This document shows, in pieces, positions 1 to 63,309 of a stretch of DNA of 64,000 nucleotides. Within the stretch, counting starts at the first letter, position 1; every line of letters begins with the position of its first letter. A program made the position numbers and the translations under genes. The DNA is from Cymbidium sinense (Eukaryota; Streptophyta; Magnoliopsida; Asparagales; Orchidaceae), in NCBI GenBank assembly GCA_021442155.1, contig CM038214.1, forward strand, positions 135,632,040 through 135,696,039. Reading direction: 5' to 3'. Below the pieces are notes generated by a model that worked only from the letters and a program-made list of their open reading frames with translations, had not been told where the DNA came from and ran no database searches.

Positions 1-3000
1 TCTCAGGCATGTTTAGTGGGATGACTTTCACCTCCCATAATTTTCTTAAAATTTATTAATGAGTTAATCAGGGAAATTAATTAATGAATCCTTAATCACT
101 CTCTTAATGTAATCAAGGTTAATTAAGCATATGAATCATAGTTTAAGTCCTTGATTAAGATAACTAAACTTTGTTTAAGTGATTAGAAGGTTTATGGAAT
201 GATTTTGGGATATTTTTCTTAAGCTATTCCCTAAACCCCCTTTCTTCCTTAAATCCAAATCTAATTAAGGGTTAATCTACTAATGATCCACTTAATTAAT
301 CAAGTCAAATTCTCAAAATCAAAATTAATCTAAAAACATAATCAATCCTTCTTGAGTAGATACTTAGGTGTTCAATAACCTAAGTAAACTTAAGGAAATC
401 ATACCTAACCCATATGTGTGAGAAATGTTATGAAAGTACTTAAATTAAACCCTTTAGCTTAATTAATCATTAATTGTGAACCAATTGCATTAGGTACCTT
501 TCTTACCTAGGATGCATTGCGGATTTGAATTTCTTGTGATTTTATGTCATACATTGGCTTATAATTATTTAATTAAATATGTTAAAGTGATGTAGGTAAG
601 GGGTAATTAATGAACCTAATCTACACCTTAACCTAACTAAAGCATAAGATTAATCTAATCACCTAAAAATTAAACTAAAACCATACACACATTTGGGAAT
701 GGGTAAGGACTAGCAAACCTTCTCACATTTTCCTAATTTAAATCAAACTCAAAGCAAAAATGAAAGTCTGTTTATAACAACTTTTGATTCTCTTTAAATG
801 ATCTTACTTCATAAGATTGTCTTTAAGAATTAATTAGAGTGAATGAAATTACATGCTTATATCACTTTATTTCTTTCATAGCATGCTAAATGTGTATGTC
901 ATATGAAAATCATGCATTCATGCTTTTCTAAAATCAAATTCAAAATGAAATATTTTCTTTATGTCAAATTGCATGTTTTGGCTAAAGTAAAAAATATGAG
1001 TGTCTATTGTCACTATTAAATTCAAAACTATTTTCAAAATCTATAAATCAAATACCTAAAACTGAAAATGTGCTTCTTATAGTTTATATATAAGCTTGCA
1101 TGTGAATATAAAAATGTGTCTTATGTTTGCTTCCTTTCTTTCCTCTTAATATGGATTTGAATAAGATTTGCAAAGTGTATAGTTCTTTTAAAATAACATA
1201 ATACTTGCTTAAATCTATTCTTATCCTCTTCCATGTTATGACCTAAGAAAGATCCTTACACTTACATATATAAATTACATAACCAAGTCAAAACATAAGT
1301 ATAAATTTTTGCATCTTTCTTTTCCATTCATTTCTTTTGTACATATGCTTGTATTTAAGGAAAGTAGTATATTAGTCTGGACAACCTCGGGATTGTGAGT
1401 CTTTAAGTAGCCCTAAGTAGGTCTTGTACCCTACACCCCTGGTTAACAATGACGCCGTACTCACTTGTGCATTTTATACATACATGTGTGCATATGAAAA
1501 GTGGATAAAAAAAACCTCTTTTCTACTTAATAAAAATCATGTATCATAAAGCATTCAAATTTTCTCAAGTAACTCACTTAGCATTCTCTTTCCATGCATT
1601 TCTTTTTGTGCACATGTATTTAAAAAAAGTGGTATATTAGTCTGGACAACCCTGGGGTTGCGAGGCTTTAAATAGCCCTAAGTATTTCTTGTACCTTACA
1701 CCCTTGGTTACTAATGACGTCGTACTCACTTATGTCTTTTATACTTGTAAATGTGCATATGAAAAATGGATAAAAGAATCACTCTTTTCTACTTAACAAA
1801 ATTATGCATACCTAAAAATATTCTAAGTTTCCTTAAGCAACCTCTCTTAGCATTCATTATTAAGATGTGCTAAATAATTGCATTGTATGTATATATATGC
1901 TTAGTATTCATTCATGTGCATGATATATATGTGGGAAAAAATAAAATATTATGTGTTTTGTGATAGTAATTCACTTTACTTAATCTTAAAATGCTTTTCT
2001 TTTTGAATAGGTTTGTTTAGAAAAAAATCTAAACTTAGGATTAATTAAAATACATAATATAATATTCACTAAACAAAAATCATTAATGAATCTACCTTAG
2101 AAATCACTCAAGGTAGAGAGGAAAGAGAAGTTTTCTTCGCTTTTTCTCTCTTTACAATCTTTAGTAATTAATTAGGTTCATTCAAATCAAATAAAATTAT
2201 AAAACAAAATTAACCCATATCAACTAAACAACTTAAATGAGACCACCCTTCTAAGTTGAACCTTTTCATACTTGGAAAATCCTAACCTTAAAGACTAGCT
2301 AAGCATACCGCACAAACCTTACATGACACACACATTAGGCTAAGTCACCACTTCTAGTCCTATGTTAGAGCGGTGGATGGTTTGATGTTTATTTTATTTT
2401 ATGATGTGATATTTTAGTTTGGATGTTAGGGTGTATGTGCGTAGAATGAATGGTAGGACGATTTAGTAGAATCATTGTCTTCTATAGGGATTGTGCTTAA
2501 AGGGAGATTTAATAAAAAAAATGTAACTGCTTTTGCTGTGCAGGTTGCTTATACCCTTAAACATAATCCAGAATAGGCCAAGTGGACTTGGTTACCCATG
2601 TGTGGGTTGCTAAGTCCAATTTATTTATATACATGCCTGACAATGTGTGGTTTGTTTAGCTAATCTCTATTTTGCAGGTTTTAGTTGGATTTACTTTTTC
2701 CCTTTTCATGTAATTTTACAATTAGAATTTTGGAATGATTGTTATGGGGATTAGGATGAGCATTGGTTATAAGGCCATGCCTTATGTACCATGTGAAGTC
2801 TTTGGAGCATCCACCTTCCAACCATTCAAAAGAAGGAACCAAGAAGAAAGAAGAGATGAAGAAGAAAGAAGAGAAGAAGAATGAAGAAATAAAGCTTGAA
2901 GACTCCCATAACAATGAATTCCTTGTTTAATTGTACTTAATTCATTTGTAATCTGGGTTGTATAAGAGTAAAGCTTGGCTACCCAATTTTTTTTTTTGAG

Positions 3001-4506
3001 TTTGCACGGTGGTGCCCAACCACACTTGGTCTTTTATTCTTTTGCGTTAGCTTTATAAAATGTTTGATATTTTATTTAACTCGTGCATTAGAAATGACAT
3101 ATTTTCTAGTTTCTTTCTTGATTTGATGTATGGCCTGGATGATGATTAGGCTCTTAGAAAAATAAATCTTCTACCAAATTAATCAACTCAAAATTAAAAA
3201 TAAGCAACTCATAACCTCACTTAAAGCCTAAGCTAAAAATCAAGATAAAAGAATTAGTAACCCCTTAGCTGGATGAGTATTTCTTTTACAACATCATGCA
3301 CAACAGCATCTTATTTCACTCTTGATTGGAGAGCTTCCACCCGTGCCAGAGAACTTGGCTTGAACTTTGAGAGCCATAGTGGAAACACACCTCCTCTCTT
3401 CTCGCTGATTTTGGCCCATAATCTTATTTCTCATGCATTAGGCATATGAATCCTCTAAGCCTAAGTCAAATGATTATCCAAAAATGAAAGTAAAATATAA
3501 TATATTTTGCATTAGATCTAGGTCATTTTTCATGCATTTACATGATCTAGTCTCTTTGGGAGTGAGATTAAGGACTTAGTCTCTTTCTAAATAAATAACA
3601 AACTTGTTATCTTGCATAAAACATAAGACTTGCCTACATGTATTTAAAATCATAGGAGGAGTTAATTGACAGCCACCCCTAGGCAGTTATAAGTCCAAGC
3701 AGTCGGGTGATTTATCCTCTCTTGTGGAGCAAATCGAATACCCATTTTTCACCTTAGATTTAGGTTGTGCTTTGGCCCTCGCCAAAGCTCTCTAGATTTA
3801 GGTTCTGAGATTGCTTCTCCCTTCTATGGGCCATAAGCATAAATCCTCACCTCTTAGGCATTTTCATGACCTTGCATCATGGAATTATAAGCCCTAAACT
3901 TCTAATAAAAATTCAACTCAAACAAATAATTTCCTTAATTTCAAAAATGTAAAGCCAACCATAGGATAGTTTGGGATGTTTATTAGGCTTCCTAGTATCC
4001 TAAACATCCCCTACTCATCTCCATTTGTCTTCGATAAGAACTCCCTCCTCTTGATCGATCCCATTTGATTTGCCAAAAATAAACTAATTTATTGATAGTC
4101 CCACCGATTGAAATATTTGGAGACAATGATCATTTACCTTAATCGAGAGTATTCTTGAGGAATCTCATTCCTTAAGATGTAATTAACTATGGGGGCTTGC
4201 CCCTCTAGGGAATTTAACGAACCCGATTTTAAATAAACCATACTTTACTTTTCCATATAAAGTAGGGAAAGAATCTTTGGTACATATGCAGACCCATTAT
4301 CCTTAGGAGTTCTTATTGAGGTGAATAGGTCCATTATAGGGTGGTGACTTCTGTATTTTGAGATAGTACACCTCTCCTAAATGCCGATCCCATCATCCTA
4401 ATAAGAACATCTGCGGATCTACGTGGTGTCCAAAATAAAATGCATGTATCTCTATTTTTATTTATCCTCTTCAAAAGGATAGATGAAGGCAAGAATATTT
4501 TCACCA
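1..4506 (+). repeat. 5' LTR of element A (3' portion)
   Basis: This AT-rich non-coding stretch aligns almost end to end with 28262-32338, the 3' LTR. Both copies stop matching just after an ACCACAAA string (4503-4510; 32335-32342). I place the end at ACCA (4506); 4508 is also possible because the next bases are the same in both flanks. Two internal tandem copies of about 260 bp, each with a GTATATTAGTCTGGACA-like core, start near 1367 and 1632. No protein-coding signal is present. Confidence 0.85.
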
Positions 4507-4516
4507 CAAATTTTTC

Positions 4517-4534
4517 TAGCGACTCTGTTGGGGA
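4517..4534 (+). other. Primer-binding site of element A
   Basis: The string TAGCGACTCTGTTGGGGA begins 10 nt after the LTR end. It closely resembles the (T)GGCGACTCTGCTGGGGA string found after the LTR of Ogre/Tat elements, where it is described as pairing with the 3' end of a tRNA-Arg. Element B has a damaged version (TCTCTGGCTGGGGATG) near 48122, with about 7 nt missing. The tRNA identity comes from the family, not from a search. Confidence 0.65.
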
Positions 4535-4919
4535 TGGTTCCTCTCTCCATCTTTGCTAAATGATCGTTGTCTTCAAGTATCGATAGTGGGTTTGTATTTT
4601 GTATGAATCAGAGACTATCTTTCTTTCTGTTGACACTTAGCTTATTTCATTCTTAAGTTGAGTGAGTCAACATCCTTAGATTTTAGGACCTCACTCTGTG
4701 TTGGTCTTAAAACCCCTGTTGGGTTCTCCAATGGGTAAAAATAAAAGGATCTAAATAAAAAGAAAATATTTGAAGACATCCTCTTTATCATTTTTATGAT
4801 AAGAAAATGTTCATTCTAAAATAATAAAGACAAAATAAATTTTCATAAAAATCTTGCTTTTCAAAAAGTGTCTTTTCAAAAATGCACATAGTAAAATATT
4901 TTCACAAAATTTTCTTAAA
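4535..4919 (+). other. Leader of element A, segment before the hairpin array
   Basis: This untranslated leader segment follows the primer-binding site. Its first 200 bases have a counterpart in element B (48130-48330), with shared phrases such as TTAGCTTATTTCATTCTTAAG, so it is a conserved part of the family rather than host DNA. No ORF of note is present. Confidence 0.6.
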
Positions 4920-6660
4920 TCACCCTCATTTAACAATTCCCATAATTGTTACATGTAGTAATTTTCAAAAATAAAACTAAACAATCTTTTCCAAAAGCAT
5001 AAATGAACAACTTCTTTTAATTCACTTTGATGAAGGTTTCATTTTCACAAAATAAAATGAACAATCATCTTTCCCAAAAATCAAAATCAAAATAAAAAAT
5101 AAAGTTTTAAAAAAGCACACATGAACCTTTCATTCAATAAACTCACACATATTGAATGGAAGTTTCATTTTCAAATAAAATTAAATTTTTCAAAACCACA
5201 TATGAACATCTTCATTTAATATACTTAAATTTATTGAATGAAGATTTCATTTCCAATAAAAAATAAAGATCATTTGGAAATCCCACTTAAACATATCTCA
5301 CATATGATTAAGTTGGAATTCCACTCTTTCAAAAAGCAATTATCACACACAAAACAAAAATTTTCATATTTTTAAAATAAGATTGATTTCCATTCCTACA
5401 TACCCAAATTTGTTGAATGGAAGTCCTCTTTTCAAAAATTAAAACTTAATAATCATATTTTCAAAAAAATTCAAACACATTTTGGAACTTCATTTAGCAT
5501 ACCCAAATTTCCTAAGTGAAGTTTCCAAAGCCAAAATCCAAAACCCAAACCAATCATATTTTAAAATTTTCAAACACATTTGGAACTTCACATAGCATAC
5601 TCAAATTTGCTAAGTGAAGTCTCCAAATCCAAAATAAAAATTTTTTCAAACACATTTGGAATTTCATTTAGGATACCTAAATTTGCTAAGTGAAGTCTCC
5701 AAATCCAAAATAAAAATTTTTCAAACAACACATTTTGGAACTCCATCTAGCATACTTAAATTTGCTAGGTGAAGTTTCCAAATTCAAAATAAAAAATTTT
5801 CAAAAACAAATTTGGAATTTCATTTAAATATACTCAAATTTGCTAAGTGAAGTCTCCAAAGTAAAAATAAAAAATTCTCAAGCACCTTCATTTCTTTCCT
5901 CACCATACCAAATTTTCTAAGAAGAAGTTTCCATTTTCAAAACCAAACTAAATTAAAAATTTTGAATACATCTTTTATTTTCATTTAGCATACTCAAATT
6001 TGCTAAGTGAAATTTTCATTTCTAACAAAACTAAGTGAGACTTCAACCTTAGCATACCATATTTGGTAAATTAAAGTCTCCACCTTCAAACAAATCCAAA
6101 AAATAAAAAATGAAACACTTAGGATTTCCTCAGCATACTTAAATTTGCTAAGGATCTTACTTTTTCAAAAATCAAATATCCAAAAAACAAGTGAAACACT
6201 TAGGATTTTCTTAGCATACCTAAATTTGCTAAGAATCCTATTTTCAAAAATCAAACAAAATACACTTGGGTTCTTCACTTAGCATACCTAAATTTGCTAT
6301 GTAGGAATTCCAAATTTTCAAAAATCAAACAACAAATCACCAAAAAGAAACAACCATTTTCAAACACTTCACTTAGTATACCTAAATTTGCTAAGTGAAA
6401 TTCCAAAATCAAAATCAATTGACCCTTACTTTAACATACCCAAATTTGTTAAAGGAAAGGGTCCTCAAATAAAAAAAACCCAAATTCAAACAAACATGAA
6501 CCTATGGAAGCATCCTTCTCAAAATATTTGAATCCATCTTTCAACATACCCAAATTTGTTGAAGTTGGATTCATATTCAAAATTTCTTTTCAATCAAATT
6601 CTCAAATCTATTTGAACCCCACTTACCGCTTCCAAGTTGTTGGATGTGAATTCAAATTTT
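4920..6660 (+). repeat. Array of covarying hairpins in the leader of element A
   Basis: At least 17 inverted-repeat units are spaced about 60-110 bases apart. The stems are 7-20 bp and the loop is about 10 nt, usually TACYYAAATT. Clear examples are 5131-5158, 5210-5243, 5484-5526, 5579-5627, 5655-5703, 6121-6157, 6199-6240, 6421-6463 and 6529-6573. The loop is nearly constant while the stems differ and stay paired: CTTTAACA/TGTTAAAG at 6429, TTTCAACA/TGTTGAA at 6539, CTTAGCA/TGCTAAG near 6210, TTCAATA/TATTGAA at 5133. No coding potential. The array lies between the primer-binding site and gag, where packaging, dimerisation or translation-control RNA structures are usual in retroelements; a role here is inferred. 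Confidence 0.82.
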
Positions 6661-7677
6661 CAATTCAAATTCAAAAAAAATGATAAAGATAGAAATCTGA
6701 TACAAACTCATTTCCTGTTGCAGATTCTTACAGTCAGTTACAATACAGTGATAGTTTAGCCAGTCTTCTTGTTCTAAGATGGCGGATCAGTAAGTTCATT
6801 TTCACCTTCCCCATGATATGGATTTAGCTTTGGACCAAGCCAACTTCCACTCGATTGGGCCATACACATCGATCCACTTTGGTAGGGGATTTGAGCCAAG
6901 ATTACTTGTGAGGGCACTCCCCTCACTCTGATTAGTAGGACCATGGTGATGCGGCGGTCATCAGATTGATTTACCCTCGACTCGACATCTCCTCCGAAGA
7001 GGAAGGCGCGTTCCACAAGCCTTGTGATAGTATCAATTAGGCTCTAGCCCCTTTTAGTATGCCCCCTGGTTTCTCATGTTGCCCCAGTGAGGGCCAACAC
7101 CCTCTCATTTGTACCATCTAAGGGTAAGGCTCCCCTGCTCTCAGGGCTTGCATCCCCTACTTTTGACTATGGGTCTATCTCTCACTCCTCCCATCCTACC
7201 AGGGCATAATATATGAACAAGAACCACATGATCAAGAGGTATTACACCAGGATTGCAAAGAGATGGAGGCAGTCGCTCATTCAGCTGTTGAGGAGTACCC
7301 TATTCTTACTTCACCACTAGTTATAGAAAACCAATTCCATCCTCTCTCTAAGTCAGACATAGAAGATGTTAGGAGGATCCGCTCATCACCTCCTCCAATG
7401 GTGCGGTCAGGAGTTACCGAGTAGTAGAGGTCGTCATTTGGCCTCCGATGCTTCTTTGGCGAGCTTCTGGTCTCAGTCGAGCTCGGTTTGATCTCGATCC
7501 ATCATCCCCATAGTGTGGGGAAGCATATTTAGAGAGGGCCCAAGAGGGACAACACATATTACCAAGAGAGAGGTTCGCCGGTTAGCGTCTTCTTCTTTTA
7601 TTGATTTTCCAGCTCGGTGCGCTACCCACGCTGACCATACTGATAACATCCTTCTTACTGGGACTAGTCATCATAGG
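6661..7677 (+). pseudogene. Element A gag, N-terminal part, interrupted by the MULE
   Basis: Base composition changes here from AT-rich leader to a mixed, coding-like sequence rich in Pro, Ser, Arg and His codons, with many stops. The frame ending in TSHHR at 7663-7677 resumes in register as RIAPVHRES from 14333 once one copy of the 10-bp target duplication is discounted, so it was one open frame before the MULE arrived. No diagnostic domain can be named; by position it is the poorly conserved N-terminal region of gag or the extra ORF1 that Ogre elements carry. A candidate ATG is near 6779 (MADQ), but a stop follows at once. Confidence 0.5.
7668..7677 (+). repeat. Left target-site duplication of the MULE
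   Basis: TCATCATAGG is repeated exactly at 14323-14332 and directly abuts both terminal inverted repeats. A duplication of 9-11 bp is typical of the Mutator superfamily. Confidence 0.93.
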
Positions 7678-7711: not shown

Positions 7712-8573
7712 TAATTAGGTAATTAGGAAGCATAAATAAAATTAATAAAATAGGCTGGTCGTGAGTAGGCGGCGGCTAGTGGCTCATCCCTAATTTAGGT
7801 AGAAAACACGAGATCATGCGCAAGCTCTGGGTTTATCCTCTCGATCCCACCAGTCACTTTCGCGATCTCAGACATGTCAGCCGTGAAGCTCGTCCGCCAG
7901 AAAGTCGCCGTCGGTGAAGAAGTAAGGAAGGGTTATTTTTACGATTTAGGTATTTCTAACCCTAAACAAAAAAAAAATGTATAATGTCAATTGTGAGTTT
8001 ATTTGGTTTGTTTAAGCTAATTATTATGATATTCATAGAAAATTTGTGATCGATCTCATTTGTAATTTTTTAGGAAAGCTTCAATTTTTTGCAATTTTTT
8101 TTTATTTAGGAAGTGTGTATGTGTAGTTTAATTTGGTGTTATGAAGATCTTTAATTGTATTAGGCGCATATGTGGTGATTCATGTTTGTTGAAAAAATTA
8201 AATCTGTGCTTGATCTGTTTTGCTGAATATCTTTGTGTGTGATGTTTTTTTGGCAAAGGAGGTACGTGGTGTTATAAAGATTTATTTTGCTGAATATCTT
8301 CGATCTGATTAATGCAAAAGAGAATGATTGACTTTTATAAGTGTGGCGTTATAAATTGGTTATTGTCACATTACGGATTTGGATTTTATTTGTCACATTG
8401 CGTAGTTGGATTTTATTTGTTATTTGAAATATTAGGATCAGTGATTGCTTGAATGCATAAGTATTTATCTTTTCATATATTAATGCAAGATTTTTGTGCG
8501 TAATAGGTAGCGGTTCAAATCATTATTATTATTAGCTAGATGAGTTCGAATCTTGTATGTATTGTTCTTTATT
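7712..8573 (+). other. MULE leader: GC-rich exon-like block and T-rich probable intron
   Basis: The first part (about 7755-7917) is GC- and CpG-rich. It contains an ATG (7877) opening a short frame reading MSAVKLVRQKVAVGEE, which runs into GAAGAA/GTAAGG, a good plant splice-donor context near 7921. T-rich DNA without coding potential follows to about 8510, as in a plant 5' intron, ending with AG strings shortly before the transposase reading frame. This is the expected place for a promoter, first exon and intron of the transposase gene. The short peptide is not recognised and could be a captured host exon. Splicing is inferred. Confidence 0.4.
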
Positions 8574-11055
8574 ATGATGGTGAACTTAGTAAGTGATGAC
8601 TTCATTCCAACATATATTGGTGGGAGAAATCGTCAAATTTCACGACTAAATTTGAGGAATTACGAAAAGAGTTATGAAGTTGAAGTTAGATCCATCAAAA
8701 TTCTCTTGTTGGTGGGTCATTTTCCTATTGGAACTGGATTTATTGCAACACACATTAATGATGAGGAAGTTTGTGAGGATATTATTAATGCAGCATGTTC
8801 ACAACCTTTTATGGTGTATGCCGAATTTGAGGAACTCCCATGTGGAGATAGGGAGGTTAGCAACATAGTCGACCGTCAAAGAGGTGGAATAACCACTAAT
8901 TACATAACACCACCTCCTTAGATAAGTACTCAAGGGAAATATATGAGGCTGTAGTAAGAGAAAATGATTATTTTACTGGCACAAGCTCTGCTCATATGGG
9001 TGACCCAGGTGACCCTCAAGGTAATGATGAACCCACCATCGATGTAAATGTTGAATATGAAACTATGCCTAGTGGAAGTAGTGATGAGGATGATGGCATT
9101 ATATTGACTCGGGTAGGTTGATTTAAGGCGTAACCATAAGATATGGTCAGAGATTTGATTGTCGATTACTCAAGGAGAATGAGTCATACTGATGAGCATT
9201 TGATACATAATAATGATTATATGCGTAGTGCTCAAACCACTAGAGAATGGGATGAAGACCTTGCATTTGATGGCCCATCAGATGATTCAACCTTGAAGAG
9301 GAATTGCATCCCGAGATGAATTAGTGGAAGGTATGTGCTTTCATGATAAGAAGCGTTTACAATTTCTATTGGTGTGGTCAATTATAAACAATGTTAAATA
9401 TGTCATATATGCCTCAAGCCAATCAAGATTTACTGTGCTGTGCACCCGCCATTTTGACCCAGTGAGATCATGTTTGTGGCATTTACATGCCTGCTCAATT
9501 AAGAGGTTGGGTGGAACTTGGAGAATTGGTTCAGTAGGCTCTCCTCATAGCTGTAGTAACTCAATTCTTAATGCTGGACATGGGCAATGCACATCACAAT
9601 TTATAAGTTATTTCATCCACCCTGCAGTCAGGCGTCAGTTGGATCTCAAGCCCAGGGAGATTATATGCCATATAGAGTCAAAGTTTAATATAAGAGTGTC
9701 TTATATGATGGCTTGGGATGCACGAAGAAAAATAGTTAAGGATATTTTTGGCAGTTGGGAGGAATCTTATAGATCATTGGGAAAATTTATGGCTGCTGTT
9801 TGCACATCTATGCGATTCATATCGGTACTATCCATCGAATAGATTCCAATGACTGTTCTGGTCATTTGAGCCATCAATACAAGGTTGGCAGTATTGTCGC
9901 CCGATTTTATGTCTTGATGAGACTTTTCTCCTGGGTAAGTAAAGAGGCACTCTACTTAATGTTATTGGGATCGACACAAACAATGGGTTGTTCCCACTAG
10001 CCTTCGCAGTTGTTGAATCGGAGTGCATAGAGTCTTGGATTTGGTTTTTGCGCACTCTTTAGGAATTGATCCCATTAGTGTATATGAAGGGTGATCTATT
10101 CTTCATCTCAGATAGACATGCAGGTCTTGTTCGTGGCTGTCGAGCAATCTTCCCATGGGTTGCACATCGCTTCTGTCTGCGCCATTTGAGGGAGAACTTC
10201 AAGAGAGCGGTACGATAACTTGGCATAGCGATGTAGAATTCATGTGTCGAAAAATGCGTTCAGAAACATAGATGACATCAATTTTCAAAAGGCACATGTC
10301 GGACATTAAGAATATTAAGCGGGAGGCATCTGCTAGTTTCAAGGATGTTCAAGTGGACTCAAACTCATGATAAGCAGTGCAGTGCGGTACTATGATGACA
10401 AATGCGTGAGTGCTTCAGCGAGTGCTTAAAGCGTGCTTACCTATTCAAGCTCTGATTACGGTAGTGTACTATAATATAATTTCCCTTTTCATGAAACATC
10501 TTGAAATGGCTGCCGCTCTAGAAAGGCAACAAGAAAACTTATTTTCCCCTCATATTAAAGCTACACTAATTGCTAATGAATGCGAGGCATGAAGATTACC
10601 TGAACCTGTTAGGATTAGCATGTCTGAGTATCAAGTGTTTGATGTCGACAATCGAACAAAGTAGAAGTTTCTGAGAACTATGACTGTAAGTGTACGTGCA
10701 GATAACCACAGTCTTATCATCTACCTTGTCCACACATGATTGCAGTTTTGAGCCATCACCACCTAAACCACGCGTTATGTCTCACGTACTACGCTTGCGA
10801 AATTATATTAGCACCTACCAGAGAGAGTTCCATGTAATACCTGATTGGGAGGAGTGGGAAGATCACATCACAGAAGGCAGTTATGAAACTTATAACCCAC
10901 CTAATATTAAGCGAAAGTCTGGAAGGCCAAGGGCAAGCAGATTTAAAAATACCATGGATGAGAACATTCCTAAAAGTTCCAGGGCGTGTGCTGTTTGTAA
11001 GACTATTGGGCATAATAGGTCAACGTGTCCTCAGTTGCGTGCACGTAGAGTGTGA
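8574..11055 (+). pseudogene. MuDR-type MULE transposase, degenerate
   Basis: The transposase would cut and join the element ends through a DDE nuclease fold in the nucleus. Parts visible in order: N-terminal region with DDFIPTYIGGRNRQ (8598 on); the MuDR DNA-binding region, including FHDKKRLQFLLVWS, PAVRRQLDLKPREI and FGSWEESY (9330-9800); the catalytic MULE domain with LDETFLLGKYRGTLLNVIG (D1, near 9920), ISDRHAGL (D2, near 10115) and HRFCLRHLRENF (near 10170); a SWIM zinc finger, CxC...CPH (10695-10755); and a C-terminal CX2CX4HX4C knuckle (CAVCKTIGHNRSTC, 10988-11029). Several frameshifts and stops separate these blocks, so it is inactive. The ATG at 8574 is the first in frame with the N-terminal block. 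The stop is at 11053-11055. Confidence 0.87.
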
Positions 11056-11512
11056 TGTTTTCTAAGTTAGTTGTTTGATGTCATGTTGTGTGTTTGTGCT
11101 ATTGTTGTATTAGTCCTACTGTGTACTTGTGTCTCATCTGTTTTGACTAGTGATTTATGTCATATTGTCTACTTGTAGTAGTCCTATGTTTAATGTCATA
11201 TTGTCTACTTTCAAGCAGTGCATATTTTGATTAGTTTTTCTCTGTTGTACTTATTCAAAAGTGTATATTTCTTTGCTTAGCGTTCATAGTACACATGGTG
11301 GAAAATAAAATTATAAATCTAAAATTTAAATCTAAAATCTCTCAATTAATAGCAGCTATTTTTATATGTATTTTATGCATTGCTATTTTTATGTATGTCT
11401 TTCAACAACAGGTATTTATTTTAGTCCTCTGAGCTACAAGTACTCTGAATTACAATGCAATGTAATACTTTTTTTAATCTTGTATGTTGTTTGCTTCAAT
11501 GATACAGTTAAG
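11056..11512 (+). other. Spacer between the two MULE ORFs
   Basis: T-rich non-coding DNA with a GATACAG acceptor-like string just before the next ATG (11513). It may hold the 3' UTR of the transposase and the 5' UTR or intron of the downstream ORF. Nothing else is recognised. Confidence 0.4.
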
Positions 11513-13438
11513 ATGTCATGTGAAGACATAGGAGGCGATGACCAAGATCTTGTTGAGGACTCGGTCCACCATAGATGCACCCTAATCTATGTTACATGGT
11601 AGACATAAGCGGCACATCATTGTACATTATTTTTTTGAAGTCATTTCGTGCCAATGTATGTGTTTATTATACTAACGTGTCTATGCATCTCCTCGATTGC
11701 GGGTTTTAGTGCTTGAGGCTGCGCACATCTGTTCAAGAATGGCCTAATTATCACGGATTCATGGGTGCATTGCGATGTCGCTTTTGGATGTCTCCAGATC
11801 GCATTAAAATGGATCATCACTTCCTGACATCATTAGTGGAGCATTGGTGCCCGCAGATGAACACATTCCACTTTGCTATTGGTGAGATGATGATCACACT
11901 AATATGCGATGATCTGGCGTTCCTATAGATGGCCTCCTCTTATTGGCGGTGTTGTCGTTGGTGGAATTACGTGGATAGCGTGATGAGTTGATCGAGTGCA
12001 TACAACCGTGTATTATGATCCATCCATCCACATATCACATCAGAATTTCAGATGGGTCCGCATGCACGTGCTTTCGTTACGATGGCTGAGGTGGACTTTT
12101 TACAGAGATTCATCCTTAGATCTACCAGAGCTCCAGTTTATTATGCATATCAGAGCATACATACTGTTTGCCATTGAGTCTTTTCTTCTTCCCTACACTT
12201 CAGGCTCAGAGGTCCACCTGCAGTATCTACCATTATTAGAGGATATTCATTCTTTTAGGGGTTTCTCGGTAACCATTTGTATTATCTGAGAGTTGCATGA
12301 GCAACCAAGCCAAAGTGCAACATAGCATGATGTATTCATTTCAGTATGGGCACAGGAGCACATTCATGTTGTAGACTACCTTACGTGTTCCCTATCCAAC
12401 ATCGATGGTCTTAGCGTTGGATGTCATTTGGAATCAAGTTGTTAAAATTGCCATCCAACATCGAGTATACAAGGATGAGTTGGATGGACTTTCTGAGTCA
12501 TATAGAAATTTTCATTTTACTTGTTTACTCTTCATGGGATTAAAATTTTAGAGTAACTTATGATACATGTGCATCATCAAGCCATATAGACATATCGCAT
12601 CGCATTTGAATATATGTTTGTAGTGAGAGGAGATATGAGCTGAGTAATTTGTTGGAAGAGGGTAGAGTGGTACCACGATCATGTTCAAGTTCATGCCTCC
12701 CATGATTGATGTTGACCGATAGATCCATCGTTTATTCGTGTTGATGGGCGAGGAAAAGGCCATTTGATTGGGCCATATACCACTCACATTGATAGGAGCA
12801 ATTTGGTTGTATGGATTGATCAGATGATCAAATGATCAACCGTTACATAATGATAGATCTTGGGCTTCACTTTATAGACTAAAGGCATCGGCATTACGCG
12901 ACACATCTACCAGCTGGAGATTAATGGTTTCATGTGGAATTACAATTTCTTATTTACAATGAAACCCGATATAAATTTACTTTCTTTGTAGCGTGAGCAC
13001 ATCCAATCTTGAGGATATATTTTGCTATTTCAAATGGTGACATAAATTTCAAAATCTATTGATGATTATTATCGTCAAAATATCTCATACAAGGATATAG
13101 ACATTCCAGGCACTTTTTCAAAGATGCCGTCGATGGATGTGGGTCCATCATATATGTGGTCTTACTATCCATTCACACATACCCATTCATATCGGATGCT
13201 GTTTGATGAACCCATGGCATGCATCGATACTACATATTCATTCCACACACCACCATATCTGATATACAACTCATTGCCATCTGCTTCAGATACCACATTT
13301 ACTTGGGATTTTGCAATAACCCATTGCTGGATAGGAGAATTTCTTGATCATATTACCATCCCATTACACTCAAGCGATCACGATTCTATCATGAAATCAA
13401 TGATAGTTGTATTTTTTTTTAACATTTATGCCATGTAG
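11513..13438 (+). pseudogene. Plant mobile domain (PMD, MAIN-like) protein, degenerate
   Basis: PMD proteins are found in plant MULEs and other transposons and in host silencing factors of the MAIN/MAIL type; in transposons their job is uncertain. Visible here: a short acidic N-terminus (MSCEDIGGDDQDLVED), then the PMD core. The core has RIKMDHHFLTSLVEHW and FHFAIGEMMITL (11800-11905), a frameshift, then GVPIDG (11918 on), and RAYIL, followed by SGSEVHLQYLPLLEDI (12150-12250), matching the YLPLLED block of the family. Stops and at least two frameshifts break it. The last open part, 13124-13438 (MPSMDVGPSYMWSYYPF...), is rich in Tyr, Ser and His and has no recognised domain; it may be the C-terminal tail. 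Orientation is the same as the transposase upstream. Confidence 0.72.
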
Positions 13439-13599
13439 TAGTAGCTATTTTTTTATTTGCTATGTCCACTTATTCAGATTCAGCTGATTGTACAATTATA
13501 CTTTTGTTTGTTATCAATTTAGTTTTATTTGGTTAACTCACAACTATTTAAACTCATACAAAAAAAATTAATACACTTAGAATATTTAATATTATCAAA

Positions 13600-14180
13600 A
13601 AAATATATGTATTCAACAAGCATTGTATTAAGATCACACAAACGAGTGTTGTCGTAATATTTTTATTTTTTGCAACGTCAAATTTTTTACATTTCCAAAA
13701 ACTATGATTAAGAGGATGAGATTTGTCAAAGTTGTTGATATGAAAGTTGTATAATTTTTCATTATCTTTCAATGATACCAATACGTCAAATCAACATCGA
13801 TGAGATAGATATAGCCAAAATAAGGTGGTTGTCTACCTTTTTTTTTTTAAAAAAATATATTTGCAAAAATCGGGCGAGATTCATCGAAAGTTATCAACAT
13901 AAAAGTTGTAGAATTTGTTATTGTCTTTCCAACGATGCTAAACACGCCAAAATACAACACCTGATGAGCCTGATATGGCCAAAAAATGAGGGCTACATCA
14001 ATATTGTTATTTTTTGCAATTTCACATGTCACATATTTGCAAAAACTGCGGATCACTGGGCTAGATTCCAAACATACATAAGTTGTAGAATTTTTTCATT
14101 ATCTTTCCACGATATCAAGTATGCCAAATTTTGACATTGTGATATGTTCAAAAAATGGAGACTATCAATTTAATTTTTTT
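13600..14180 (+). repeat. Degenerate tandem repeat (about 170 bp, three units) near the MULE 3' end
   Basis: Three diverged units share AAAGTTGTA(T/G)AATTT, then TATTGTCTTTCCAACGAT-like strings (about 13746, 13906 and 14080) and a TTTGCAAAAA string. The spacing is about 160-175 bases. Non-coding. Subterminal repeats in DNA transposons often bind the transposase, but no such role can be shown here. Confidence 0.65.
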
Positions 14181-14288
14181 TAAAATCAGAGCGGTCGCCC
14201 AATCAGCAGGCGGCGCACCGGGCATCCCATTCGGTGCATCACTTGCGATTGGCGTAGCTATTTGTTAATTTTTTATCTCTAATTACTT

Positions 14289-14322
14289 AATCACTAATCA
14301 TGCTTAATTTGAAAATTTGGCC
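14289..14322 (-). repeat. Right terminal inverted repeat of the MULE
   Basis: Exact reverse complement of 7678-7711, ending GGCC directly against the right target duplication. The inner flank is GC-rich (14190-14260). Confidence 0.95.
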
Positions 14323-14332
14323 TCATCATAGG
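14323..14332 (+). repeat. Right target-site duplication of the MULE
   Basis: TCATCATAGG, identical to 7668-7677. Confidence 0.93.
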
Positions 14333-16400
14333 AGGATAGCTCCTGTGCATAGAGAGTCGGTGGTGTCTCCACCCCACCACTCTACCCCTCGTCCGCCATC
14401 ACTAGTCCAGGTCATAACATCTCCAGTTCCATCTAAGGCCATGAAGGCCATATCAGGAAGCGCCCATTGGTGATCCTATGGCCAGGATCTACCTTCTACA
14501 CCACCCATTGTGGCGAGACCGAAGCTTTCTGCTCAACCTTCGCCCCTGAGTGGTCTTTGAAGGAGTGGTCAAGCATCGTGGTCGTCCCTTCTCCAACTCC
14601 GCCAGTACAGTAAGATGTGGAGATGGTGGCAGTCATTTCAAAGATTGCAGATGATAGTCCAACTGCACCAGTGATGGTGGAGCATCCTAGGATTATTACC
14701 CCTCTCATAGCTAGTGGCAGTTAGGAGTGTCACTCATCTAGAGTACAGTCCACATAGGATTGACTCTCTAGTGGCAGGCGAGGTCCGGTGCCTCCCAATG
14801 CACAATAGTGATCACACCGATTAGCCGAGATCATTTGTTCCCATTCAGATTGATCGTTCTCTCAAGGTGATAGTATCACATTATCTTGTAGAGAGAAGGA
14901 GATTTTGAGGTACGATTGGTCACATGAGGAGTAGGTCAGCTTCGATCCCAACAAAGTTGATTTGTTGGGAAACTCAATCGGGGTCTGTATGGTGAATACC
15001 AGAGGATCCCTCCTCAGAGAGCATCAGACTATGGAAGGTGTTGAGCCCGAGCAAGAAGACATAACCCACTCTACCCAACACCTCCAAGCACAGATCAAAT
15101 AGAAGGATGAAAAGATAGAAAGGATGGAGAAGATGCTCGAGGATCTGTTAGCAGCTATCTTAGCATTGCAGAACCAACAGTTCATCCTACCACAGTTGAG
15201 ACTACTCAGCCAGAGTTGGTGCATGTCTTAGACCCAGTCAAGACTTTACCTCAAGTAGAACAAGGTAACACCAACATATATAGGAAGGTAGTGGATAGTA
15301 CCTCCATAAAAGAAAAGGATATTAAGTCCATGGTTGAGCAGCAGGTGAAGGAAGCATTGACTCAAGCCCGAGGGGGATCATCAGTTCCAAAGGGTAGACC
15401 TTACCTAGAGGAATTTGATGCAATATAATATCCCAAGGATTTTGTGCCATATTCTTTTAGGAGTTTTGATGACAGGAAACTCAAGGCAGCATATTGCACA
15501 CTTTAGGGCCAGTTGTTGCAACGTTGGTGGCAGTTATGCTTTACTCTTCCATCTCTTTGTTAGTAGCTTAGTAGGGATAGCTTTTGATTAGTATGCTAAA
15601 CTTCCCAATAGTTCAGTAAAGACTTTTGCTGAGTTGGGGTAACTCTTCATTAAGAGGTTTGTTGGAGCTCAACAATGGGTCACTATTGGTGATCTCGTTG
15701 TGGCTCAACAAAATGATAGTGAGTCCCTTGTTGATTACATTCTCAGATGACATAATTTGAGTATGAAATGTGAACCACAACTATTTGAATAACATGCCAG
15801 TGAGATTCTGCTTAAGAATATCCATGGCCCGGTTGCCTTCATGCTCAAAGGTTTTACCATCAAAACTTTTGAAAAATTAATCAACAAGACGGCTAGCTTG
15901 CAAGGAGAAGCTAAACAGTTACCTTCCCCAGATCTACCAACAAAGCCTAAGCCACAGAAGATATATAAAAAGAAGCCCGGGACAATGATAACAGTAGATA
16001 AGAGGAAACAACCAGCTAGAGAGCAGTTTGAGAGACCTCGTGCTCCACATCATGCTTCGCCTCTATACCACCACAGAAGCGCCTTACCGGCCTCCACTAG
16101 CCTCCACGCATCCTCTTAGCCACATCATCAACAATAGCGGCACACATACCCGCTACTAGGTAGCTACCATCCACCTACTCTTATGGATAAATTAAATAAA
16201 CCATACTCATTTAAGAGAGAGGCAGTTAGGAAAATCTTTAAGAATCTCTTAAAGAAAGCGACTTTAGCTACAATCTAGAGAATGGAGGAAGTAAACAATG
16301 ATCTAACTTTTGCCCCTACCACTATGCTAGGTCATGTTTTGGAGGATTGTTTACATTCAAGGACAAACTTGAACATAACTTCAAGGTAGTGCTATAGTCA
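14333..16400 (+). pseudogene. Element A gag, continued (retrotransposon gag domain), degenerate
   Basis: Gag forms the particle that packages element RNA. After the MULE the frame continues with a Pro/Ser/Thr-rich stretch, then EQQVKEALTQARGGSSVPKG and RPYLEEFDAI (15335-15425), then YPKDFVPYSFRSFDDRK. The last matches the conserved (Y/F)P-F-P-F-FDG start of the plant gypsy gag domain. Next come ELGXLFIKRFVGAQ and QQNDSESLVDYILR (15630-15750), corresponding to the FxxRF and QxxxESLxxY blocks, and a basic tail from 15841. A late segment (LGHVLEDCLHSRTNL, 16328-16375) resembles the post-gag HTTEDC-type motif. Stops interrupt nearly every block. Frame breaks prevent a single start or stop being assigned. 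Confidence 0.75.
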
Positions 16401-17220
16401 TCCCGAAGAAATACCTTGTGGAACAACCATCCTGTTCCATTAGGGTAATCCTTGGGGATGACTGCGATCCTTCCCAAACTAAAGAAGTTTGGGATATCTC
16501 ATTATCCAAAACCTCTAAGAAAATTATTCAAAAATCAAGAAACTTTTCTTGTAGGTGGCTGAGTCAGCTCAAACCTCCAACATCAATGAAGGTTTGCAAG
16601 TTGCTAGTGCCAACTCAAGGAAAGGGGAGCTCGGCAAGACATGTGTCACTCGGGATAGCCCATTAATGCAACTAGCAGAGTCTAACCTCTCTAGTTGGCT
16701 TACACACCACGACTTCTTCCACTTTAGCTCTACTTCTTCTAGTAGAACTCTTGTATCGGTGGATAAGGGCATCAAATCCCTTACCCCACTCATTTTACTT
16801 GATTTCTACTTTACACCTCCAAATAATTCTAAGAAATTAAAGAATAAAGCTAGTTTGAATTATATCTGTGTCACTTCTGATGGGTTGTCTGAATCTATTC
16901 TAAATAACTCTTTAAGTCTAAACAACAACTATAACAATTCTGATCTTTCTCTTTCTGATTTAGAGTTGAATTTTCTTACTTTGAATACTTCGAGTTTGCC
17001 TCTTCAGATAGAATTGAAATCATTCGATTTTGAGGGTCCCATAGAAGAAGCTGTAGGTGAGCCTGACGTGCAGGTAGAATCTTCCATTACCCTATCACAA
17101 GAGATCACCGAAGTCAACCTTCGTAGTGGCAAGATTCTACCTCTTAGGGCACCTCAAGATAGAAGGAAACAAGTCATTGGTTTAGAGGATCGAGAAGCCC
17201 CTCCATAGGATGCTCCACCC
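16401..17220 (+). pseudogene. Element A gag-protease junction region, degenerate
   Basis: The longest open part is 16555-17205. It is Ser/Asn-rich and acidic, ending with ITEVNLRSGKILP (17107-17145), a motif seen just before protease in plant gypsy gag-pol. The same region in element C (62597-63300, minus strand) has VWDISLS/DWDISLS and TGLNLHQ/TEVNLRS equivalents, so both were coding. No catalytic domain is recognised; a spacer or protease N-terminal extension is likely. Confidence 0.6.
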
Positions 17221-17800
17221 TTGGATATGCTTGTGGATGATCAACCCAAGGTGGATTATAATGTCCTCTCTCACCTAAGAAAGTTTCCATCTAAGCCAAG
17301 CATATACGATGCCCTTATCTTATCCAAAGAGATGAGGGAATCATTAATCAAGTCTCTCCTTGATCACGAGATATGCTTAGCTCGGTCTATTGGTGAGGAG
17401 GCACATTATTAGAAGCTCAGGGAATCACTTTCACAGATGATGACCTTCTTCTGGGAGACTTGGAGCACAACTGTCCCCTCTATATTACAGTTGACATGGG
17501 CAAATTCATACTATCCAGAGTTCTCATCGATCCAGGTGTGTCGGTGAACATTATGAGTCTAAAGACCCTTGCCTATTTGAAGATTGACATCTCCACACTC
17601 CAAGGAGATCGGATGATGTTGAGAGGATTTAATGAACAAGGTGAGCGGGCTTTAGGTTCCATAGTGTTACCTTTGGAGATATGTGATTAAAAATTTGTAG
17701 CCAAGTTTTTCATAATTGATTCGAATACTTCATTCACCGCTTTGCTCGATAGGGCTTGGATACATCAGAATAAGATAATTCCATCCTCCTCCATCAGTGC
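17221..17800 (+). pseudogene. Element A aspartic protease domain, broken
   Basis: This domain would cleave the gag-pol polyprotein. Before the active site are VDYNVLSHLRKFPSKPSIYD and ALILSKEMRESLIKSL (17250-17370). After a frameshift and stop come GITFTDDDL, HNCPLYITVDMGKFILSRVL and the active-site string IDPGVSVNIMS (17527-17559). The flap and C-terminal parts follow: MLRGFNEQGERALGSIVLPL and FIIDSNTSFTALLDRAWIH (to about 17770). The Asp of the D-x-G triplet is kept, but the middle residue is Pro in both A and C. Stops at 17410 and 17688 mean no product could be made. Confidence 0.8.
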
Positions 17801-18740
17801 ATGAAGTTTAGGAAGGATGAGATTGAGTATTGTGTCAAAGGAGATGAAAAACCATCTTTTGTTAGAGAGGTTGAGATATATAAAGATGTGATCTACTATC
17901 TTCCTCAAAATACTCTATCTCGTGAACTTGGACAAAATTTAAACTCAAATTCAAAAGCAAATGAAAATGAAGAAAAAGATAAAGAAAAGGCAAAAGAAGA
18001 AGAAAAGAAAAAAGAAAATCCAAGTCAACAAGAAAGGGAAATTGAAATAGAAATAGATCCGCATATCATATTCCACCCACAGTTCATTCCATCATATGGA
18101 CATGTGGGTAGAATGGCTCAACCTCCACCAGATAGAGGCAGAGGCATAAACAAAGGTAGTTCTAGAGGTGGAAGATCCCCTGGTTAGCCATCACAGGTTC
18201 CAATTCATAGAATATCATTCATAGATTTGGAATCCAGTTCAGAGGACGAGTCTAATGTGATTAGCATACTAGCCAACCCCTCTTAGTGGGTTTCATTGGA
18301 GGTGACACTCAAATAGCGATAAAGGCGGCCTGAGACAAAGCAAAGTATTTGAATCAAGTTTATGTGAGACTATTAGGTAGCAGCTAGAAACATTAGCTCT
18401 AACCTCACTTTTACCCCAAAAAGTTGAAAATTTCATAGTTAAGGAAGCCCCTAAGTCTTCCAGTGATATGAAGCCGAAGAGATTCCTTTTAGGATCATCA
18501 TCCTCAAGTCTTGAAGTTGATGTAGAACTTGAGGAGGATACATTTAAAGAATTAATGGAATTACCGTTTGACTTTTACTCGCTTTGTGTTCATAATCTTA
18601 TACAGAAAGGTTTGGTTCCTCACACATGGTCCTACCGTCAGTACTTTGAAAAGCTATGGAACAATATGTGGGAAACACAATCAAGAGTAGGACTAGGATT
18701 CAATACATTGGGTCGAGTCGATGATGACGGTTCTTGCTAG
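17801..18740 (+). pseudogene. Element A protease-RT linker with Lys/Glu-rich tract
   Basis: The open stretch 17801-18187 begins MKFRKDEIEYCVKGDEKPSF. It passes through a highly charged Lys/Glu segment (about 17955-18050), predicted disordered or coiled-coil, and ends in a Gly/Arg-rich tail (RGRGINKGSSRGGRSPG). Element C keeps the same layout (61440-61890). The DNA of the charged segment is an almost pure polypurine run on the coding strand. A second open part (18468-18740) leads into RT with a conserved SSSSLEVDVELEEDTFKEL acidic stretch. Ogre elements are known to have an intron between protease and RT; I see no convincing splice pair here. Confidence 0.65.
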
Positions 18741-19740
18741 TTGTTACCAATCATTTGGAGTCGATAGGTTCTTTTCACAATGGCAACTCTTATGAGAATG
18801 TGTGTTTAGAAACTCGATGATCGGATGATCTCCAAATCAAATATGCATCGCCAGAATTTGAAGAGGAGACCCATTCAACAATTGACAAACTTAAAGAAAT
18901 CAATCTCAGGACAAAAGAAAATTCACGCCGGACATACATTAGTTCATTATTGAATGAAGAAGAAACCAATGACTTAGTTAGGATATTGACTGAGTTTAAG
19001 GACTGCTTTGCATGGAGTTATGAAGAGATGCCCATTATCTCATGGCGTAGCGTCACAAACTAGCAATAGATCCTAGCTAACCCTATCAAGTAAGCTCCTA
19101 GGCATGTGATTAGAAATCAAACAACATGATATTTGATGTCAAAAGATCGATCTTTGGTTTTATCGGAAGAAAATACCATACCTAGTTAGCCAATGTCGTA
19201 CCAGTTAAGAAGAAGAATGACTAAATTCACATATACATCGATTTTAGGAATTTAAATAAGGCATGTCTTAAGGATGAGTTTCCTCTTCCTATACCAGAAT
19301 TAATGGTGGACATCGTCTCATCTCATGTAATTTTTTCTTTCATGGATGGGTCATCTAGCTATAACCAAATCAACCCTTGAGGATGAAAGAAACACTGCCT
19401 TTCGAACCCCAAACAGAATCTATTGTCCTTTGGCCTTAAAAATGCTGGTGCTACATACTAATAGGCCATGACTCAGATTTTCAATGAACTCATCCATCAT
19501 TAGGTTAAGTGTTATGTTAATCATCTAGTAGTTAAGAGCAAAGAAAATGAAACCATTTCTTTGACTTGAGAGTAGTTTTCGAACGGTTAAGACAATATAA
19601 CCTCAAAATGAATCCCCTGAAGTGTGCATTTGGAGTAGCTTTGAGAAAATTTCTTGAGTTTGTTGTGACACTTGGGAATAGAAATAAATCCAGAAAAAAA
19701 TTGAAGCTATCTTAGAAATGCACCTCCTAAGAGTTTAACT
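18741..19740 (+). pseudogene. Element A reverse transcriptase domain, degenerate
   Basis: RT copies the element RNA to DNA. The N-terminal region has STIDKLKEINL, YISSLLNEEETNDLV and FAWSYEEMP (18880-19030). The fingers and palm appear in pieces: FRNLNKACLKDEFPLPIPEL (19245-19305), SFMDGSSSYNQI (19340-19370, first catalytic Asp kept), NTAFRTP, and CYVNHLVVKSKENE (19510-19550) where YVDD is expected. Loss of the YxDD motif, with about ten stops and frameshifts, shows it is dead. The sequence is clearly homologous to element C, 59640-60934. Confidence 0.82.
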
Positions 19741-19859
19741 CAACTCAGATCTTTCTAAAGACGGCTGACATATCGAAGACGCTTTATTTCCAACCTATCG
19801 GGGAGATGCAAGCCATTTCAGCGCTTGTCGAAAAGGATGCCAAGTTCAAGTGGGATGAC

Positions 19860-20190
19860 AAGTGTCAGCATGCCTTTGAAGACATCAAGCAATATTTGGT
19901 GAAGCCGCCAATTATAATAGCCCCTATCTAGGGCAGACCACTCATCCTCTACACTATTGCATTGGACGACTCTCTCGGGGCTTTGTTGGCCCAAACCAAT
20001 GATGAAGGGAATGAGAGCGCCCTTTACTACCTCAGCCATCATCGAATTTCTGCTGAAGTGAACTATCCACCTATTGAGAAACATTACCTAGCTTTGATCT
20101 TTGCCTCCCAAAAGCTACAACACTATATGCTTTCTCATAAGGTGAACTTGATTTCCAGAACCAATCCACTATTGTATCTCATGACATGAC
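19860..20190 (+). pseudogene. Element A RNase H domain (RT-attached)
   Basis: RNase H removes the RNA strand after minus-strand synthesis. Visible: ILYTIALDDSLGALLAQTND (19950-20005), ALYYLSHHRISAEVNYPPIE (20020-20080) with the conserved catalytic-region Glu, and KHYLALIFASQKLQHYMLSH. This is the usual gypsy arrangement following RT. The frame is open from 19962 to 20189 but disconnected from RT. Confidence 0.82.
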
Positions 20191-20214
20191 CAACGCTATC
20201 CAGACTTTTGGCAC

Positions 20215-20800
20215 GATCATCCATAATTCTCTCACAGTTTGATATCACATTCGTACCCCTCCATGCGATAAAAGGACAGGCACTAGCTGATTTCTTAGCA
20301 ACATACTCACTTCCTACTAATTCTCCGCTTAGTGACGATCTCCCTGATGAATAAATCATGAACTTAGGGGATGCAGCTTCTTTTTATAAAAGGGAAGCAC
20401 CATGATCTACTCTTCTAGGAAATGTAGGGGTAGGAATAGTTCTCTTAACTCCAAATCATGATATGATGAGATTCTCATACTATCTTTCCAATCCATGCAC
20501 CAACAATGAAGTCGAGTATGAGGCTGATTGCCGGTCTAGAGTTAGCCATCACTATCAGTGTGAAGAGAATTAATATCATTGGGGATTCTCAGTTGGTCAT
20601 AATCAAATTGCTGGGTCCTACAAAATCCTCAAACCAAAGCTTTGCCATTACCACGAGTATACCATGAAGTTGTTGGCCCAAATCCCCGAAGTCACCATCT
20701 ACAAGGTTCCCTGTGCAGAGAATGTAGTAGCGGATGCTTTGGCTAAACTTGCCAAAGAATTGACATGTCCGGAAGATGAGTCCATTCCAATAAGGGTCTA
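20215..20800 (+). pseudogene. Element A second, archaeal-type RNase H (aRH)
   Basis: A second RNase H domain after the first is the hallmark of the Tat/Ogre lineage. In order: the joining segment HAIKGQALADFLATYSLP (20262-20315); GVGIVLLTPNHDMMRFSYYL (20425-20485); CTNNEVEYEA (20500-20525) with the second acidic residue; LELAITISVKRINIIGDSQL (20540-20600) with the third acidic residue in GDSQLV; and EVTIYKVPCAENVVADALAK (20690-20750). The first block (FDGATSF in element C) is damaged by a short deletion here (LGDAASFYKREAP). Frameshifts are present. Confidence 0.8.
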
Positions 20801-20879
20801 AAATAAACAAGTCTTATTTCTTATTGATGTTAAACTCATCGAGAGACTTTCTCTTGAAGGAGAGGTTGTCGTTGGTCTA

Positions 20880-32338: not shown

Positions 32339-32369
32339 CAAAGCAACATTTCATTCTCCATCTTGTTGA

Positions 32370-39845: not shown

Positions 39846-39912
39846 CAAAATTAAAATTAGAGTTGATTTTATTCAAATGAATAAATGCTTTTATAAATAC
39901 TTCTATAAGACT

Positions 39913-63300: not shown

Positions 63301-63309
63301 TATCCCCTT

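Follow-up and report, generated by a model that had tools for sequence, protein, structure and literature searches.

Array of covarying hairpins with a constant loop in the leader of giant retrotransposons from Cymbidium sinense

The leader of a giant long terminal repeat (LTR) retrotransposon from Cymbidium sinense contains an array of short hairpins, in which the stems differ from unit to unit and the loop is nearly constant. The retrotransposon, element A, shares a single 64-kb window of contig CM038214.1 with element B, both of them damaged, and with a fragment C. The window is the whole stretch of DNA analyzed here (64,000 nucleotides), and all positions refer to it. Paired changes in the stems around an unchanged loop, as claimed in the original prediction from the sequence of one leader, exceed those attributable to shared descent in both elements, according to permutation tests and a tree-aware null. 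The array appears to be a cis-acting leader structure of the retroelement, with a design for which we found no earlier description, either as a leader or as packaging hairpins, in the open-licence literature.

Hairpin arrays in the leaders of elements A and B and fragment C

The leader of element A spans positions 4511 to approximately 6780 of the forward strand. It begins with a remnant of the primer-binding site (PBS; TAGCGACTCTGTTGGGGA, 4517-4534, forward strand) directly after the LTR end. The hairpin array occupies positions 4920-6660 of the same strand and is composed of 19 units. Sixteen of them have the consensus loop TAC(Y)1-2AAATT, at positions 5222, 5401, 5500, 5598, 5674, 5753, 5831, 5906, 5991, 6055, 6136, 6217, 6285, 6379, 6437, and 6547. 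Three hairpins early in the array, at 4939, 5141, and 5297, have other loops. Fifteen of the consensus loops read TAC(C/T)1-2AAATT exactly, and the loop at 6055 has one change. Most of the 16 loop units form clear hairpins, and the predicted covarying array is real. Units 5401, 5831, and 5906 pair poorly, with 5, 3, and 5 of nine inner Watson-Crick pairs in a gapless register. A candidate degraded unit was recognized by eye at approximately 6610-6655. A structure search that was blind to the loop called 15 hairpins in 5200-6600, of which 13 contain it.

The stem arms named in the original prediction were recovered around the loops at 6437 (TTTAACA/TGTTAAA), 6547 (TTCAACA/TGTTGAA), and 5753 (CTAGCA/TGCTAG), and in several units (CTTAGCA/TGCTAAG). 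The outer arms are located at 6421-6463, 6529-6573, and approximately 5579-5627. The arms TTCAATA/TATTGAA are present at 5141, but the loop between them is AACTCACACA, not the consensus.

The array had been described for one element only; elements B and C carry it too, and the leader also includes two hairpins beside the PBS. In element B, on the reverse strand, the 3' part of a homologous array occupies positions 63380-64000 and runs off the window at 64000. Seven of its units lie in the window, with loops at 63992, 63913, 63845, 63729, 63613, 63518, and 63390. In unit 63613, the stem enclosing the unchanged loop is entirely different (CCCAACC/GGTTGGG). The leader of fragment C (48350-48858, forward strand) contains two units in which the loop is the motif or close to it, at 48508, found by the motif, and at 48650, found by eye and having a 10-base loop. 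It also contains three tandem hairpins at 48703-48853 with the nine-nucleotide loop ATTTYAATT and one damaged arm, which were identified by eye and partly called by the structure search. The leader of C is cut at approximately 48858 by an LTR of element B.

The first of the two PBS-proximal hairpins is positioned at 4629-4671 of element A (forward strand) and has a counterpart at 48232-48272 of fragment C with an identical loop region. Its outer stem is TTGAC/GTCAA in A and TTGGC/GCCAA in C, which is one paired change. The second hairpin (4681-4712, forward strand) has a counterpart at 48284-48315 of C, with a change that preserves a G-U pair. The G-U pairs of the PBS-proximal hairpins would read A-C on the opposite strand.

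Paired changes in the hairpin stems

Pairing was evaluated at nine inner pairs in 24 units, 20 of which were selected by the loop motif alone and four (6055, 63845, 63518, and 63390) by a near match. Units 4939, 5141, and 5297 of A, unit 48650 of C, and the three tandem units of C are left out of this set. Counts of mismatches, energies, and arm alignments cover 28 units, including the same three units of A and unit 48650 of C, taken in these counts at 48649 with a 13-base loop.

In the 24-unit set, 85.6% of the cells are paired, compared to 75.4% with the right-hand letters shuffled and 31.6-41.4% in slid registers. Double-change cells number 35, compared to 13.3 after shuffling, and none of 500 shuffles reaches the observed number. 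The 20 units selected by the motif alone form 142 of 179 inner pairs; the permutation mean is 110.6, and none of 5000 permutations reaches the observed value.

The tree-aware null was constructed from a FastTree tree and parsimony, with the substitutions re-placed on the branches. We observed 34 double-changed Watson-Crick cells, whereas 10.4 are expected under the null, with a maximum of 23 (0 of 1000 replicates). The excess is present in element A alone (19 versus 6.7, 0 of 1000), in element B alone (9 versus 2.9, 1 of 1000), and when unit 63613 is omitted (30 versus 7.8, 0 of 1000). The plain pair count of A is reached by 2 of 1000 replicates. A separate run of 1500 replicates agrees, with 0 of 1500 on three measures and 5 of 1500 for further pair types. 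Parsimony places a mean of 8.3 coincident paired changes on the branches, and 4.6 without unit 63613. In an R-scape-like scan of ten pairs, the stem sum of 40.4 is higher than all 150 nulls (maximum 32.3).

The two LTRs of element A (1-4510 and 28259-32342) are approximately 85% identical when gaps are counted. Substitutions alone amount to 8.4%, corresponding to a Kimura two-parameter distance of 0.090. This distance translates to about 4.5% per copy, and about 9% of the pairs are expected to have been hit after insertion. In gapped arm alignments of the 28 units from A, B, and C, which are optimized for pairing, 64 of 475 paired columns (13.5%) are mismatched, and there are 33 gaps. Therefore, the stem mismatches may largely represent later decay of stems that were once well paired.

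Constancy of the loop and folding of the leader

At its eight constant positions, the loop is 98.4% identical within A, 93.9% when units of A are compared with those of B, and 89.9% within B. The corresponding identities of the stem arms are 58-67%, 61-64%, and 62-63%. Nine copies of the loop motif elsewhere in the window, two of which are LTR duplicates of two others, have no stems, with 2.56 of nine pairs compared to 7.15 in the units. A pattern scan detected no inverted loop or loop complement, which could act as a kissing partner, in the sense orientation of the three arrays. Elsewhere in the window, the scan showed no second array of the loop complement, only scattered single sites.

Hairpins with a score of at least 8.5 occur at 8.0 per kb in the array of A, compared to 2.3 per kb in Markov shuffles. 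The leader of C is similarly enriched (5.9 versus 2.3 per kb), and the excess is weaker in the cut array of B (3.2 versus 1.6). The mean folding z-scores of the sense strand, calculated in 200-nucleotide windows, are -4.7 for the array of A and -3.1 for that of B, compared to -0.5 for coding DNA and -0.9 to -1.2 for the LTRs. On the antisense strand, the two arrays have z-scores of -2.6 and -1.5. A search of positions 4400-6900 against Rfam 15 returned nothing at the gathering score; MIR7533 on the minus strand was below the threshold (20.5 bits versus 230).

The original prediction allowed for either folded RNA or cruciform DNA. Folded sense RNA is favored, because the loops are exposed and the folding is cleaner on the sense strand, and because the PBS-side stretch folds better in the sense orientation. 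The probability that the loop is unpaired is 0.87 in sense and 0.42 in antisense for A, and 0.81 and 0.66 for B. The minimum free energy (MFE) structure contains 13 of 19 unit hairpins of A in sense and 8 in antisense; for B, the numbers are 5 and 3 of 7. The 100-nucleotide stretch with the two PBS-proximal hairpins has a folding energy of -34.0 kcal/mol in sense and -21.8 in antisense in A, and of -27.8 and -22.2 kcal/mol in C. The linkers of A contain 51% A and 3% G. G occupies 23 of 987 unpaired positions and 110 of 694 arm positions in A, 27 of 433 and 38 of 207 in B, and is absent from the loops.

Organization of the window and classification of the elements

The 5' LTR of element A (1-4510, forward strand) is cut at its 5' end by the window edge and pairs with the 3' LTR at 28259-32342. 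The LTRs are at least 4.1-4.5 kb long, and the element, insert included, measures at least 32 kb. The LTR contains a duplication at 1350-1513 and 1615-1778 (forward strand) with a spacing of 265 bases, and matching pieces are present in other LTR copies. GCGACTCTGTTGGGGA comes right after the LTR and is presumably complementary to tRNA-Arg. Soon after the array, an ATG, ATGGCGGATCA, followed by GTAAGT, can be read at 6780-6796 (forward strand). It is possible that the ATG is the start of the coding part and that GTAAGT is a consensus-like splice donor.

Between the leader and pol, which extends to approximately 22400, element A contains a coding piece (15793-16116, forward strand) that is probably gag, judged by its position. 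The piece has three protein matches, two of them from Dendrobium, and is 63% and 53% identical to two Dendrobium catenatum proteins without a named function; Pfam gave no match for it. A homologue search with the piece at 7167-7421, closer to the leader, was without result. The region of approximately 8000-14800 (forward strand) is an insert with matches to a plant mobile domain (PMD) at 11710-11925 (E 4e-10) and 11987-12286 (below the cut-off), and a weak zinc knuckle match at 10690-11052. The insert is perhaps a Mutator-like element with a PMD gene; the term Mutator, like the borders given for the insert, is a guess.

Element B, on the reverse strand, comprises the end of the leader (64000-63280), pol (63137-57008), and the 3' LTR (approximately 52880-48859). 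Its pol region contains reverse transcriptase (RT) pieces, RNase H, and an integrase-like piece, and is homologous to approximately 16620-22345 of A. The homologous coding DNA of the two elements is 73-76% identical. A protease motif, DPGASVN, was recognized by eye only, and Pfam has no match for that piece. In the RT region, a 149-base tandem duplication (59814-60111, reverse strand) is 98.7% identical and therefore probably recent. At 63307 (reverse strand), the leader of B joins a region homologous to position 16454 of A, and the stretch with the probable gag of A is absent from B. The sequence GGGGAT at the joint is common to both elements. We considered splicing as the origin of the missing stretch, and found no splice site at the joint by eye; an ordinary deletion seems likelier.

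Fragment C, on the forward strand, contains an LTR (approximately 43400-48120) and a leader up to 48858, where it is interrupted by the LTR of B. In the region 39900-48858 (forward strand), a 3' internal region comes before the LTR, and a PBS and the leader come after it; from approximately 48858, B lies inverted in this leader. The arrangement looks as if two internal regions shared one LTR, as from unequal recombination. The 3' untranslated regions of the window (25300-26700 and 39900-42050, forward strand; 55111-53265, reverse strand) are partly G-poor and rich in CAAATC, with hairpins based on TTGACC/GGTCAA. Their folding signal is stronger in antisense in A and B, and about equal on the two strands in C.

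The elements look like Ogre/Tat-type giants of an orchid or a relative, given their domain matches, their size, and the PBS of A, which we take to be of the Ogre tRNA-Arg type. A tRNA-Arg PBS is stated for Ogre and its orchid relatives as a type, without the letters (PMC9289625). RT_RNaseH exceeds the Pfam cut-off in both A and B. RVT_1 matches two pieces of B with 15.5 and 27.1 bits, both under the cut-off of 29.6, and the rve_3 integrase match in A reaches 15.9 versus 26.5. The order RT-RNase H-integrase is that of gypsy elements, weakly so because several domains are below the cut-off. A second, archaeal-type RNase H was weakly indicated by RVT_3 in B (E 0.0029, 18.0 bits versus the cut-off of 21.6), and was not found in the corresponding piece of A. 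Very long LTRs and a very long element, as expected of Ogre/Tat, are present.

The integrase piece of B has no Pfam match, yet matches a Dendrobium integrase protein. Among the four protein matches to the integrase piece, two are from Dendrobium, one is unnamed, and the best is labeled Mammaliicoccus sciuri, from a 704-base contig. The latter protein shares 65% identity with the integrase piece of the plant element and is probably a plant contamination in a bacterial assembly. The DNA of the window looks like plant DNA.

Possible function of the hairpin array

We propose that the array was probably kept by selection as sense RNA. In the genomic RNA, the A-rich and almost G-free linkers would remain mostly open, and about 20 short hairpins would each display one common single-stranded loop, UAC(Y)1-2AAAUU. 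A single protein would read the loop, and the many copies would add avidity and make the binding selective for the RNA of the element itself. We infer the folding of RNA rather than of single-stranded DNA, and consider it somewhat likelier that the loop is bound by a protein than that it is not. Our leading interpretation, which falls a little short of being probable, is that the leader is a multivalent cis-acting RNA element, likeliest a packaging signal for Gag, with dimerization or primer annealing as accompanying roles. That the loop-binding protein is the element's own Gag, its likeliest ligand, is plausible at a slightly lower level.

Retroviruses carry their packaging signal between the PBS and the coding region. 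The array occupies the same place, which makes Gag and packaging the likeliest assignment, while these are also the least certain part of the interpretation. The array had been predicted to lie between the PBS and gag; it does follow the PBS, and the leader is predicted to be structured, but gag is a presumed gene, assigned by its position, and has no established start. The complete proposal, namely that a giant plant retrotransposon family tags its genomic RNA with about 20 interchangeable hairpins of one loop, with stems drifting by paired change, as a packaging code that the Gag of the family would recognize by avidity, is tentative and, taken as a whole, rather doubtful.

Several observations weigh against the leading interpretation. 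The 3' untranslated regions are also hairpin-rich, with 3.8-4.7 hairpins per kb compared to 1.3-1.6 in shuffles, and G-poor. Their folding z-scores in sense and antisense are -2.7 and -3.3 in A, -1.0 and -2.2 in B, and -3.1 and -2.9 in C; therefore, regions outside the leader give a folding signal as well. The constancy of the loop is partly ascertained, as 20 of the 24 units were chosen by it. The retention of G in the arms results in part from pairing itself, which requires equal numbers of G and C there. In the MFE structure of the full sense leader, 6 of the 19 units of A do not form, and neither do 2 of the 7 of B. The whole stretch of A folds more stably in antisense (-484.8 kcal/mol) than in sense (-375.6), which we attribute to mispairing of the antisense linkers. 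The strand tests were not significant: mismatches over the 28 units comprise 19 G-T and 15 A-C, and 17 of 28 single units are more stable in sense (Wilcoxon p 0.29). The R-scape-like scan, a covariation test of the kind that had been suggested for the stem columns, gives an excess for the stem sum, but no single stem pair reaches significance when every column pair is considered, and two of the three top-ranked pairs lie off the stem. Paired change, which the original prediction regarded as a classic sign of selection, was found, but alone it is no proof. Mutation by template switching is able both to generate stems and to repair them (PMC8794818), and could have made the paired changes here; selection is the cause that we infer.

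The same process underlies the idea that the fold has no function and is a by-product of DNA synthesis or reverse transcription, in which template switching at quasi-palindromes makes and mends the stems. The multiplication of the units in tandem agrees with such an origin, as does the mismatch test, which gave no sign of selection on RNA. It would leave unexplained that the loops are far more constant than the stems, that all those found by the pattern scan in the arrays share one orientation, that copies of the loop motif elsewhere lack stems, and that the arms retain G although the region is otherwise poor in it. We regard such a by-product as unlikely. The main rival to packaging, which we estimate to be just as unlikely, is that the leader is an element for nuclear export or another RNA fate, whose hairpins would attract an export or RNA-binding factor of the host and thereby let unspliced genomic RNA out of the nucleus. 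The analogy is with structured leaders such as that of cauliflower mosaic virus, to which components of TREX are recruited; the review that describes this calls it unclear whether plant LTR elements carry export motifs (PMC12786077). Export would draw on the same sequence evidence as packaging, and the sequence contains no pointer to export over packaging.

A role in translation, with the long G-poor leader scanned or entered by ribosomes and the hairpins tuning initiation or shunting, is more unlikely still. The G-poor linkers result in few ATG triplets (15, versus 53 CAT, in the array of A), but the number is not clearly under the Markov expectation (19.4, standard deviation 4.2; 9 versus 8.4 in B), and the constant loop would be unexplained. 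Finally, the hairpins could be a source of small RNAs or a structure recognized by the host, as the LTR palindromes of maize Sireviruses, and not be kept for the benefit of the element. Small RNAs are drawn to the places in Sirevirus LTRs where palindromes cluster (PMC10760457), and the arm alignments extend over at least 20 columns, gaps counted, in 17 of 28 units. By argument rather than by test, the cost to the element would favor loss of the hairpins and not their paired upkeep with a fixed loop, and we consider this explanation highly improbable.

Comparison with known systems

The nearest described structures are the repeated palindromic motifs in Sirevirus LTRs (PMC2829016, PMC10760457), which also form an array of short palindromes in a non-coding part of a plant LTR element. 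They differ from the array described here in place, element class, and logic. The Sirevirus motifs belong to Ty1/copia elements, where they precede the TATA box in the LTR and, in two elements, also occur next to the ENV gene; their CGG-CCG core is fixed except in Tnd-1. In contrast, the array has variable stems and a fixed loop, and is positioned after the PBS in the leader of a gypsy-type element, outside the LTR. No CGG-CCG core was found by eye in the arms of the 24 units.

Packaging and dimerization structures in retroviral and Ty1 leaders are similarly stem-loops near the PBS in genomic RNA, whereas here about 20 copies of one hairpin type extend over 1.7 kb. The 3' untranslated regions of Tat/Ogre elements contain hypervariable tandem repeats (PMC7004042); these lie downstream of gag-pol, unlike the upstream, strongly diverged, and hairpin-forming array. 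The elements of the window resemble Ogre/Tat elements of Ty3/gypsy in the presumed type of the PBS and in having Dendrobium among their few protein matches. They share giant size and multi-kilobase LTRs with Ogre/Tat members such as the orchid giant Gypsy_Pa_2799 (PMC9289625). The consulted main text of the Gypsy_Pa_2799 paper mentions neither 'hairpin' nor 'leader', and the comparison with this element draws on its published description (PMC9289625). The consulted text of a 2025 review of plant LTR elements does not use 'hairpin', 'stem-loop', or 'secondary structure', and in the consulted passages that treat packaging and export, no structural RNA signal of plant LTR elements is mentioned (PMC12786077).

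As a probe for relatives of the array outside the window, the 22-mer TTAGCATACYYAAATTTGCTAA has no match in a collection of viral contigs with practically no plant genomes. Two single matches in genome contigs, from Idiomarina and an Ignavibacteriae metagenome-assembled genome, were taken for chance with the alignments unread; that collection too contains practically no plants. Two protein-guided scans of viral contigs found no relative, which says little about plants.

If the array is a structural RNA signal of these elements, the hairpin with its common loop would be a compact motif that can be tested, in a class of elements abundant in plants. The many units in each RNA would then represent replicate evolutionary experiments on the stem changes that are permitted.
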